Source: Rhodovulum strictum (GTDB lineage Bacteria > Pseudomonadota > Alphaproteobacteria > Rhodobacterales > Rhodobacteraceae). Taken from it: DNA of 64,000 nt. The notes under the pieces are model-generated. The model was not told where the DNA came from and did not search any database. It saw only the letters and a list, made by a program, of their open reading frames with translations. The stretch covers positions 1-64,000 of the forward strand of contig NZ_WJPO01000005.1 of NCBI RefSeq assembly GCF_009649175.1. The letters are read 5' to 3'. The translations under genes were made by a program, and so were the position numbers. Within the stretch, counting starts at the first letter, position 1; each line of letters begins with the position of its first letter. Below are positions 21,060 through 30,361 of the stretch, in pieces.

Positions 21060-22472
21060 TCAGGTCGAGCGGCGCTCGGCGCCGAAAACCTTTTGCGCAA
21101 CAAGCGGGTAGGCCACCACAACCGTCACCACGAGAAACAGCAGCTCTGCCCCGTAGACAAAGAAATAGGGCGTGGCCGGACCGAACAGACCCGAGAATGG
21201 CGACAGCAGGATCAGGTCGCGCGCAATCCCGCCCAGCGCGATCGCGATACCTGCCGAGGTGGCCTGAACCGCCCCCCAGGCGCCCAGCGCAAGGCCCACC
21301 TGTTCCTTCGGGGCGGCGCGCATGGTGGCGGTCAGGGTGCCGTGGCTGAACAGCCCCGCCCCGAATCCGGCCAGCCCCGTGCCGATGATGAAGATGGCCG
21401 GGCTTTGCAGCGTGGCCGAGAAGGTGATCAGCGCAAAGGCCGGCACCCCCACCAGCGCCCCCGCCCCCGCCATCACCATCGGATCGGCGCCGCGGCTGAG
21501 CACGCGCGAGGCCAGCGCAAAGCCGATCAGCCCGCCCATCGCCAGCGTTGCCGTCAGCCGCGTGGTCGAGGCGACGGACATTCCCAGCACCTCGCCGCCA
21601 TAGGGTTCCAGCAGCACCTCGGCCAGACCGAAGCCCATCGTGCCAAGCCCGATGATCCACAGCAGCCGACGCGGGTTGGCGCCGCGCATGAACAGCCCCC
21701 AGGCATCCGAGAAACTGGGGTCGGGCTCGGGATTGACGCGCTGGCGATAGGCCCGCTCGCGGTCGCGCGCCTCCATCTTCCAGATCGCGAGGACGTTGAA
21801 GACCAGCGTCATCACCGCGGCGCCCTGGATCACCTGGATCAGGCGCGGGTGGCTGAAATTTTCCAGCAGCTTGCCGAAGATCAGCGCACTGGCGATCATG
21901 CCCGCCAGCATCATCACATACATCAGCCCGACCACATTGGGCTGATCCTCGCGCGGGGCAAGATCGGTGGCCAGCGCAAGCCCGACGGTCTGGACGATAT
22001 GCACGCCCGCCCCCACCAGCAGGAAGGCAAGCGCCGCGCTGACAAGCCCGATCCAGAGCGGCGCATCGGCCGCGAATTGCTGTTGCGACAGCACGATCAG
22101 CGCAAGCGGCATGATCGCGAAACCGCCCCATGCCAGCAGCGTGCCCTTCCAGATATAGGGCACCCGGCGCCAGCCGAGCGCGGATTTGTGGGTGTCGGAC
22201 TTGAACCCGATCAGCGCCCGGAACGGCGCGAACAGAAGCGGCAGCGCGATCATCACGCCGACGATCGTGGCGGGAACCTCAAGCTCGACGATCATCACGC
22301 GGTTCAGCGTGCCGACCAGCAGCACCATCGACATGCCGACAGACACCTGGAACAGGGCCAGGCGCAACAGGCGTGACAGGGGAAGGTCGTCGCTGGCAGC
22401 CTCGGCAAAGGGCATCAGGCGCATGCCTGCGCTCGCGATGCCCTGGATCGCCATCCGGCTAAGTCGATTCAT
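21060..22472 (-). CDS. pucC: LH2 assembly factor PucC (MFS-like BCD family)
   Basis: This 470-residue membrane protein has about 12 hydrophobic segments and belongs to the PucC/LhaA/Bch2 family. These proteins are needed for high-level light-harvesting 2 complex assembly and are thought to handle bacteriochlorophyll or the apoproteins. Family-like sequences include GFKSDTHKSALGWRRVPYIW, APREDQPNVVGLMYVMMLAGM and LFSHGTLTATM. It lies third in the puc operon, 157 bases after pucA, with a strong hairpin in the gap that can set the lower PucC level. A short GCCGCT/AGCGGC hairpin straddles its stop (21055-21073), possibly a weak terminator before tamA. Confidence 0.95.
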   Translation of the reverse strand: MNRLSRMAIQGIASAGMRLMPFAEAASDDLPLSRLLRLALFQVSVGMSMVLLVGTLNRVMIVELEVPATIVGVMIALPLLFAPFRALIGFKSDTHKSALGWRRVPYIWKGTLLAWGGFAIMPLALIVLSQQQFAADAPLWIGLVSAALAFLLVGAGVHIVQTVGLALATDLAPREDQPNVVGLMYVMMLAGMIASALIFGKLLENFSHPRLIQVIQGAAVMTLVFNVLAIWKMEARDRERAYRQRVNPEPDPSFSDAWGLFMRGANPRRLLWIIGLGTMGFGLAEVLLEPYGGEVLGMSVASTTRLTATLAMGGLIGFALASRVLSRGADPMVMAGAGALVGVPAFALITFSATLQSPAIFIIGTGLAGFGAGLFSHGTLTATMRAAPKEQVGLALGAWGAVQATSAGIAIALGGIARDLILLSPFSGLFGPATPYFFVYGAELLFLVVTVVVAYPLVAQKVFGAERRST

Positions 22473-22629: not shown

Positions 22630-22812
22630 TTAGGCCGCGTCGGTTTCCGAGGTGGTGACCACGGCGGCGCCTTGCTTGTAGTAGTCAGCAAAGAAGCCGG
22701 ATTGGGTCACGAGGCCCAGGTGGACCAGGAACGAGCTGATGGCAACGGCGCTCAGGAAGAGCGGGATGCCGACGGTCGGCTTAACGACGAGCCAGAGTTT
22801 CGCGTTGTTCAT
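22630..22812 (-). CDS. pucA: Light-harvesting 2 alpha polypeptide
   Basis: This 60-residue antenna subunit has a single membrane helix. It shows the LH2 alpha pattern KLWLVVKPTVGIPLFLSA, the bacteriochlorophyll-ligating His31, and Tyr44-Tyr45, which hydrogen-bond the B850 pigments. Tyr at both sites points to an 850-nm rather than an 800-820-nm form. The C-terminal tail after residue 48 is polar. It begins 15 bases after pucB, with AGGAGT in the gap on the minus strand. Alpha-beta pairs assemble into rings around bacteriochlorophyll a and carotenoid in the intracytoplasmic membrane. Confidence 0.97.
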   Translation of the reverse strand: MNNAKLWLVVKPTVGIPLFLSAVAISSFLVHLGLVTQSGFFADYYKQGAAVVTTSETDAA

Positions 22813-22827
22813 ACCTTGGTACTCCTC

Positions 22828-22983
22828 TTAGCCGAGCCACGGCGTGCCGACGGCAGCCAGGAAGTGCGCGACGAGCGCGATGGCGCCGAACACGCGGGTG
22901 CCATCGATCACTTGCTTGTGCACTTCTTCGGCTTCAGCGAGCGTCAGGCCGGTCGGCCAGACTTTGTTGGGATCGTCAGTCAT
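22828..22983 (-). CDS. pucB: Light-harvesting 2 beta polypeptide
   Basis: The 51-residue beta subunit closely resembles the Rhodobacter protein: [13 protein letters not shown] at the start, EAEEVHKQ with His22, His40 as bacteriochlorophyll ligand in ALVAHFLA, and TPWLG at the end. I take the ATG at 22983, preceded by GGGGAGA; the longer open frame upstream is leader sequence. It is first in the pucBAC operon. The 5' region carries PpsR-type operators, so expression should rise at low oxygen. Confidence 0.97.
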
Positions 22984-23118: not shown

Positions 23119-23136
23119 TGTCACAAGCGATTGACG
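23119..23136. promoter_or_regulatory. PpsR/CrtJ site, distal copy (one mismatch)
   Basis: TGTCACAAGCGATTGACG fits TGT-N12-ACA except for the last base. It is 7 bp from a perfect site; PpsR/CrtJ binds such close pairs cooperatively. It covers the likely -10 region of the puc promoter. Confidence 0.6.
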
Positions 23137-23149
23137 TTGGCAATGTCAA
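23121..23149 (-). promoter_or_regulatory. Candidate pucBAC promoter
   Basis: On the minus strand a perfect TTGACA (23149-23144) is followed after 17 bases by TTGTGA (23126-23121). The -10 is poor, but each hexamer lies inside one of the two PpsR sites, as expected for a repressed puc promoter. It would give a leader of about 130 nt before pucB. An inverted repeat TTGAC-N9-GTCAA also spans 23131-23149. The rest of the 23162-23371 gap shows no clear plus-strand promoter. Confidence 0.5.
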
Positions 23150-23161
23150 CGTAGGCTTACA
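23144..23161. promoter_or_regulatory. PpsR/CrtJ site, perfect copy
   Basis: TGTCAACGTAGGCTTACA is a full TGT-N12-ACA match, the operator of the aerobic photosynthesis-gene repressor PpsR (CrtJ). It contains the TTGACA (minus strand) taken as the puc -35. Confidence 0.75.
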
Positions 23162-23371
23162 GAGGCCCCGGATCGTGCGGCATATTGAGCAGCCCTGACA
23201 GCCTGTCGCAGGAGTCGCAGCCGCCCTGCCCTGCGACCCTGCGGACCCTTGATCTCGGCCCGTGCAGATGGGGTAATCGGGGCGCCGAACCGCAACTGTC
23301 GTTCATGTCGGACCGGAACAAGGCTTTCGCATCCGACGACGACACAGACCCTGGAAAGAACCGGAGGAACG

Positions 23372-23695
23372 ATGAACAGCTATCCCTGGGACGCCTGGTG
23401 GCCCAAGCTCTCTGCCAACCAGCACATGACCGACGTCAAGATCGACCGCACCAAGACGACGATGTTCTCGGACGCGCTGGGCCTTGCGCTGCTGTCCGAC
23501 AAGAAGCCGAATTTCGAACTGAAGACGTCCAACCCCACGCCGCTGTCGTCCAAGATGGGCTGGGATCTTCTGGGCGGTAAGGGCGAAGGCAATGTCGTGC
23601 TGACCACCGCCGAGCCCTACCCGCTGTCCGCGCGCATGGGCTGGAAACTGCTCAGCGAGCGCAAGTACTACGCCATCGCCGCGCATCAGCAATAA
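23372..23695 (+). CDS. Small three-repeat protein of unknown function, divergent from puc
   Basis: I do not recognise this 107-residue protein. It contains three copies of a repeat with core TPLSxxhGhxhhSxRK (h, hydrophobic): TMFSDALGLALLSDKK at 30-45, TPLSSKMGWDLLGGKG at 56-71 and YPLSARMGWKLLSERK at 83-98, spaced 26 and 27 residues. The N terminus is Trp-rich (WDAWWPKL). It has no signal peptide or membrane helix. GGAGG precedes the ATG. It is divergent from pucB and shares a control region with tandem PpsR sites, so a link to photosynthesis is plausible. Its size (about 12 kDa) is near the 14-kDa LH2 gamma protein PucE of R. capsulatus, but I cannot confirm homology. A second protein with this repeat lies at 30092-30361. 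Confidence 0.8.
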   Translation: MNSYPWDAWWPKLSANQHMTDVKIDRTKTTMFSDALGLALLSDKKPNFELKTSNPTPLSSKMGWDLLGGKGEGNVVLTTAEPYPLSARMGWKLLSERKYYAIAAHQQ

Positions 23696-30091: not shown

Positions 30092-30361
30092 TCAGCGCAG
30101 CGACAGGAACCGCTTGCCCGTCCTGAGCCGCATCCCCGATTTCCGGCGCGAGATCATCGGGAAATAGAAGAACGACGACAAGGGCGTGGGCCAGTCGGTG
30201 TTCAGCCGCGTTGTCGATGCCTTGCGCGACACCATCGGCAGCCCGAAGAAATCCGAGAACGGCGTGGCGCTGTTCCGGTCCAGGTGCCAGGTGTAATCGC
30301 TCATCACATAGTCGAAGGGGGCCACGCTCTTGATGAAGGTGGAATCCTGCTTGCCTGCCAT
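30092..30361 (-). CDS. Small two-repeat protein of unknown function
   Basis: I do not recognise this 89-residue basic protein. It holds two copies of the repeat seen in the puc-adjacent protein at 23372-23695: TPFSDFFGLPMVSRK at 33-47 and TPLSSFFYFPMISRRK at 59-74, spaced 26 residues. The C terminus is strongly basic (RRKSGMRLRTGKR). It has no signal peptide or obvious membrane helix. AGGAAA stands before the ATG at 30361. It is convergent with cbbY and lies 94 bases downstream of the amidohydrolase on the same strand; that gap contains a short CTGA...TCAG hairpin (about 30377-30403). The shared repeat and spacing show the two proteins are related. Confidence 0.78.
   Translation of the reverse strand: MAGKQDSTFIKSVAPFDYVMSDYTWHLDRNSATPFSDFFGLPMVSRKASTTRLNTDWPTPLSSFFYFPMISRRKSGMRLRTGKRFLSLR

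Follow-up and report, generated by a model that had tools for sequence, protein, structure and literature searches.

LH2 is a textbook antenna and is usually drawn with its alpha and beta polypeptides and its pigments only. Rba. capsulatus has an LH2 gamma protein of 14 kDa, PucE. In the literature, pucBACDE is given as the usual make-up of the cluster, and pucDE are counted among the co-regulated genes of the photosystem (PMC9231093; PMC9603517). In Rps. palustris, LH2-gamma is described as an extended ribbon that runs close to the cytoplasmic side within the plane of the membrane, embraces six of the nine alpha-beta pairs and carries six repeats of ~16 residues whose Ser residues ligate extra bacteriochlorophyll (PMC9618040). 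The authors of that work report gamma only in Rhodopseudomonas (PMC9618040). The gamma chain was located in the PDB entries 7ZCU, 7ZDI, 7ZE3, and 7ZE8.

Here, a stretch of 64,000 nt from Rhodovulum strictum (contig NZ_WJPO01000005.1; "the window") was analyzed, in which a gene for a repeat protein, termed A-type, stands beside the puc genes. The family to which it belongs resembles Rps. palustris gamma, by eye, in being made up of small tandem-repeat proteins in which a Ser stands close to a G-x-P-L-[LI] core, with charged residues between. It differs in repeat length (~26 residues in Rhodovulum and 25 or 15 elsewhere, as opposed to ~16 in gamma) and in that most relatives possess an N-terminal domain (N-domain) and have their gene within the puc operon. 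Gamma is extended in its structures and is part of LH2; for the present family both are proposed here. The positions of its genes strongly support an association with the antenna, and the A-type protein has probably been overlooked as an accessory component of LH2 or a helper in its assembly, since the family is encoded inside the antenna operon in many other phototrophs.

The three-repeat gene divergent from pucBAC

In the window, pucB (LH2 beta; 22828-22983), pucA (LH2 alpha; 22630-22812) and pucC (21060-22472) are all encoded on the minus strand. The two antenna genes pucA and pucB have LHC matches of 1.6e-7 and 4.5e-9, and pucC, a member of the family of bacteriochlorophyll delivery and LH2 assembly proteins, has a PUCC match of 4.6e-150. 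The A-type gene (23372-23695) begins with ATG on the plus strand and is thus divergent from pucB, pucA and pucC, as the original prediction had stated. It is preceded by the sequence GGAGGA (23363-23368, plus strand), of which GGAGG is kept in 15 of 15 aligned loci, and the good Shine-Dalgarno sequence ascribed to the gene is therefore present. The start region is kept across the genus Rhodovulum.

The encoded protein of 107 residues contains three units (residues ~30-55, 56-82 and 83-107) at a spacing of about 26-27. Its internal self-similarity score of 64 was reached in none of 300 shuffles (maximum 46), confirming the three ~26-residue repeats originally described; of the proposed core TPLSxxhGhxhhSxRK, the SxRK end is missing from the middle unit. 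Values of dN/dS were 0.125 and 0.194 in comparison with the two nearest species and 0.40 with a more distant one. The nearest named relatives, Rhodovulum steppense and R. tesquicola, are 93% identical. The 107-residue, three-repeat open reading frame is real, conserved and under purifying selection.

The maximum Kyte-Doolittle mean over 19 residues is only 0.45, in agreement with the claimed lack of a membrane helix. Searches of Pfam and NCBIfam with the A-type protein matched no family, so that it remains as unrecognized as the original prediction had it and shows no profile match to a known family unrelated to antennae; likewise, none of the family members tested against these two collections scored above cut-off. 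The PDB yielded no convincing relative. Chance was taken to explain matches to dUTPase (0.12), to synaptotagmin (0.15) and to designed TIM barrels (0.009); in the last, no single stretch was significant by itself. No description recognizable as that of the family was among the papers listed by searches of the open-licence PMC literature.

An alignment of 15 loci revealed two conserved blocks between pucB and the A-type gene. The first is a PpsR-like double site, consisting of one perfect TGT-N12-ACA (23144-23161), the PpsR consensus, and an overlapping conserved palindrome, TTGACGTTGGCAATGTCAA (23131-23149). Of the tandem PpsR sites originally proposed, one is a perfect match to this motif and its partner a degenerate, PpsR-like site. 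TGT-N12-ACA occurs upstream of 14 of the 15 puc-linked A-type genes in Rhodovulum and ten times in the whole window. The second block stands nearer to the A-type gene and comprises the promoter-like TTGATC-N17-GGTAAT (23249-23277, plus strand), in which TTGA is kept in all 15 Rhodovulum loci and GGGGTAAT in 14 of them, and, upstream of it, the box CCTGCGAC (23230-23237, plus strand; 14 of 15). The deviating locus, L046, departs from most of the conserved intergenic pattern. As judged from this alignment, the A-type gene has a promoter-like site of its own, separate from the PpsR-like double site.

A-, B- and C-type proteins of Rhodovulum

The repeat family was found in all 16 Rhodovulum genomes searched, each with at least two places of match. 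In 15 of them, an A-type gene and puc are divergently oriented neighbors; in the exception, G298, the nearest A-type relative (L047) is located elsewhere and puc lies on another contig. The proteins were aligned as A1 (A-type together with the A-like L047 and L054), A2 (C-type) and A3 (B-type), and the N-domain found in relatives outside the genus is absent from the aligned proteins of all three types. A Pfam match of L054 to TPP_enzyme_M_2 (2.7e-6) was below cut-off, sits on the repeats and was dropped.

B-type proteins have three to five repeats, or two that follow an N-terminal array of TNPQVETKT-like units (L063, L065, L067), and share a conserved C-terminus resembling FSKFIRQIxTGEVQK. All 13 aligned B-type genes (L049-L052, L056, L057, L061, L063-L065, L067, L069, L070) are preceded by a common upstream block, GACGCGGCGAAAA..CA(C/T)CTTG, and by a conserved leader ending in AGGTGGAnC-ATG. 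C-type proteins measure 89 to 108 residues. The C-type paralogue of the window (30092-30361, minus strand; 89 residues, two units, basic C-terminus) lies ~7 kb from puc beside gph- and cbbY-like genes, and in several other Rhodovulum genomes the C-type gene is found near form II Rubisco-like and rpe-like genes, all named here by sequence likeness. The regions read around B- and C-type genes in Rhodovulum contained no puc genes (apart from puc at ~7 kb in the window), and TGT-N12-ACA is absent from the 400 nt upstream of all B- and C-type genes listed.

The presence of two paralogue types elsewhere, with the C-type beside Calvin-cycle-like genes, would suit a general role of the Rhodovulum repeats outside the antenna, for example as a disordered scaffold for membranes or enzymes, with the A-type held at puc by conserved synteny only. 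An unrelated neighbor of the gene, presumably ndk by the look of its sequence, is syntenic as well. Such a role is nevertheless improbable in light of the independent linkage to puc in other families and of the failure to match any genus devoid of LHC genes, both of which are set out below.

Relatives at puc in other Alphaproteobacteria

A single-sequence search of 295 Rhodobacteraceae genera had returned the window genome only, and the resulting reading of the gene as a Rhodovulum orphan was overturned by profile searches. Profile A3 was built from B-type paralogues only, and the regions fetched around these contained no puc genes. Over 385 genomes of the class, it matched the window genome and 7 of the 384 others (3e-4 to 3e-9). 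All seven belong to other families and have the gene between pucBA and pucC; the encoded proteins are ~230-260 residues long, with an N-domain and several C-terminal repeats. At L100, the interval between the repeat gene and pucC also contains a second pucBA pair, and at L102 the repeat gene and pucC are ~2.2 kb apart. At L099, the gene call in the expected place of pucA was an antisense open reading frame. Profile A4, built from six of these seven proteins, matched 11 of 372 class genomes, among them three new ones and the window genome, where it recovered the B-type (9.7e-7) and the A-type (6.1e-5). The gene is flanked by pucB and pucC in G399, adjoins pucA convergently in G407 and, in G404 (L118, G404:C31), from another family of the class, diverges from pucB as in Rhodovulum. 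A weak match in G130 (0.009) was dropped, as no repeat protein was among the open reading frames listed there, and plasmids searched with three family proteins as queries held no relative. Altogether, 10 of 10 members found outside the bacterial family of the window are located at puc. Profiles blind to location thus led to genes in or beside the puc operons of other taxa, which gives good support to the antenna-associated role that had been suggested for the A-type protein.

Profile-profile comparison supports the homology of the Rhodovulum repeats with those of the puc-operon relatives: hhalign gave 98.4% for A3 with A4 (E 9.8e-15), 97.9% for A1 with A4 (4.5e-13) and 99.2% for A4 with A5 (1.9e-19), and matches of repeat-region profiles run both ways between the Rhodovulum proteins and the puc-operon family. 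No link was obtained when the Rhodovulum repeats (A3) were compared directly with the 25-residue ones (A6; 2.3%), and the connection between these two forms therefore runs through A4 and A5.

Within the Rhodobacteraceae, a PF00556 search of 295 genera found LHC genes in 121. Genera with at least four LHC matches were regarded as LH2-bearing, which gave 36 besides the window genome, with fewer matches in 84 and none in 174. Profile A4 matched 22 of the 36 with E up to 0.1. Two of these matches, those in G020 and G252 (above 0.05; open reading frames of 667 and 493 residues, located away from puc), were left out of the count; a true member was later found in G020 but not in G252. Direct reading of the puc regions in the remaining LH2-bearing genera revealed further members. 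Profile A7, made from 27 members and run over an even draw of 270 genera, matched 33, namely 29 of the 36 LH2-bearing genera, three genera with a smaller number of LHC matches and the window genome. In G274, G279 and G285 the gene is present by A4 search or region reading, though not among the A7 matches. In total, a related protein with an N-domain and C-terminal repeats occurs in 32 of the 36 LH2-bearing genera, and A7 matched none of the 174 genera lacking LHC genes, a number counted over the 295 genera from which the 270 were drawn. The profile searches returned no even spread through non-phototrophs. One of the three genera with a smaller number of LHC matches, G058, gave an N-domain-only protein, away from puc and without repeats, which was dropped as a member.

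No true member was found in G051, G091, G111 and G252 by A4, by A7 or by reading their puc regions. Over its whole length, the LH2 beta of G051 matches a 47-residue chain of 7PBW, the LH2 of Rba. sphaeroides; in this Rba. sphaeroides-like operon pucC is present and the repeat gene was not found.

Immediately upstream of the repeat gene, and on the same strand, lies pucC in 31 of the 32 genera, the 32nd locus (L144) being situated at a contig end. Together with G098, a genus with fewer LHC matches that has pucB, pucC and the repeat gene, loci with pucC upstream number 32, and an exact 4-nt overlap with pucC is seen in 16 of these, G098 included; start codons were picked by motif, which makes the gaps at L130, L142, L147 and L163 rough. 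Relatives outside Rhodovulum are probably co-transcribed with puc and translationally coupled, given that nearly all members found lie in or next to puc operons and that the 4-nt overlap is frequent. Two tandem copies are present in G235, and around extra copies in G001 and G185 the sequence read contained no puc genes. G126 has only two LHC matches; its family gene (L170 4552-5368, plus strand, G126:C3) has a broken frame and adjoins a truncated pucC, and the 9 kb read revealed no LH2 beta. The repeat gene and pucC may decay together once LH2 is lost.

The operon position after pucC is shared with pucD and pucE of Rba. capsulatus, to which the Rhodobacteraceae relatives can be likened by position only. 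Together with the typical pucBACDE order, the co-regulation of pucDE and the assignment of PucE as LH2 gamma, it raises the possibility that the family is a wider form of PucD/PucE, compatible with a ribbon on LH2; in that case, the finding would extend the known gamma and add no new component. We incline somewhat against this identity. None of the puc beta sequences listed for the 36 LH2-bearing genera looked capsulatus-like; the window gene itself, unlike pucD and pucE, is divergent from pucB and not downstream of pucC.

Repeat architecture and a possible ribbon on LH2

The repeat unit follows the pattern S/T-x-x-hydrophobic, G/N-W/x-P-L-L-S, often continued by basic residues. In a long Rhodobacteraceae subfamily, eight units were counted in 7 of 7 complete members aligned, leaving out the truncated long copies L154, L163 and L169 and the extra copies; the 25-residue spacing is exact except for one of 26, and the pattern applied for a terminal SFSKLFGLPT-like motif is matched by five of these seven. 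In some puc-operon relatives, the first ~90 residues are weakly like YflT, or general stress protein 17M (PF11181; 0.0014 and 0.0034, both below the Pfam cut-off), a domain that the window protein lacks entirely. For the A- and B-type, AlphaFold returned pLDDT of 50 and 53 and pTM of 0.13 and 0.15, from shallow alignments of 17 and 20 sequences. Within that limit, neither of the Rhodovulum types modeled is predicted to adopt a globular fold, as would be expected of an extended chain.

Operon position, the regularity of the repeats, a unit number near the ring size and the lack of a predicted fold lead us to propose, at about even chances, that the A-type protein is a Rhodovulum-specific branch, devoid of the N-domain, of an LH2-associated family whose repeats form a ribbon on the cytoplasmic face of LH2. 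The repeat region would run as an extended chain along the cytoplasmic membrane face of the ring and work in a gamma-like manner, with each unit docking on one alpha-beta pair and its basic residues meeting lipid headgroups; the unit might ligand bacteriochlorophyll via its Ser or, in one variant, its His. The N-domain, where present, would serve as an anchor for the chain or act together with PucC. On this scheme, the Rhodovulum protein with its three units would span roughly three alpha-beta pairs, and the long form (8 x 25 residues, mostly with the terminal motif) could belt the whole ring.

Several observations weigh against a ribbon. Homology to Rps. palustris gamma is not claimed because the score of gamma against A4 (5.3 bits) was equaled by 25 of 1000 permuted gammas and is thus not significant, and no match was reported for gamma against a single-repeat profile. 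In addition, the direct A3-A6 comparison failed, the low AlphaFold confidence rests on shallow alignments of A- and B-type proteins, the B- and C-types (without TGT-N12-ACA) and the extra G001 and G185 copies have no puc genes in the regions read, and 4 of the 36 LH2-bearing genera are without the gene, one of them with an Rba. sphaeroides-like LH2 beta.

The chief rival is an assembly factor linked to PucC, which would deliver or hold alpha-beta units or bacteriochlorophyll while the ring is assembled and would not persist as a subunit. Tight coupling of the repeat gene to pucC, the breakage of both genes in G126, the weak likeness of the N-domain to a stress-protein domain and low-confidence models that fit a flexible tethering chain are all consistent with such a factor. 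It is nonetheless rather unlikely, as the Rba. sphaeroides-like puc operon has pucC without the repeat gene, the Rhodovulum form lacks the N-domain, and regular eight-fold repeats are more to be expected of a stoichiometric partner of the ring.

A ribbon on LH2 admits a broader, more tentative reading, toward which we are somewhat skeptical: LH2 of most Rhodobacteraceae and of several other Alphaproteobacteria may possess an overlooked third subunit, a tandem-repeat ribbon that belts the cytoplasmic face, each repeat matching one alpha-beta pair, and that possibly binds additional bacteriochlorophylls. That such a subunit had gone unnoticed would be explained by the absence of the gene from the main model, Rba. 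sphaeroides. A conserved, unnamed gene at puc in 32 of 36 LH2-bearing genera would make the Rba. sphaeroides picture incomplete, and what limits or tunes the ring size and B800 pigment content of LH2 would become directly testable.

A variant repeat form is seen in the extra copy of G001 (L172 4264-5358, plus strand, G001:C2), for which no puc genes were found in the 9 kb read. It contains nine FMAK-type units of 15 residues (MAKFPFGHIVPGHKF) and eleven VPGH motifs, whose regular His could be pigment ligands.
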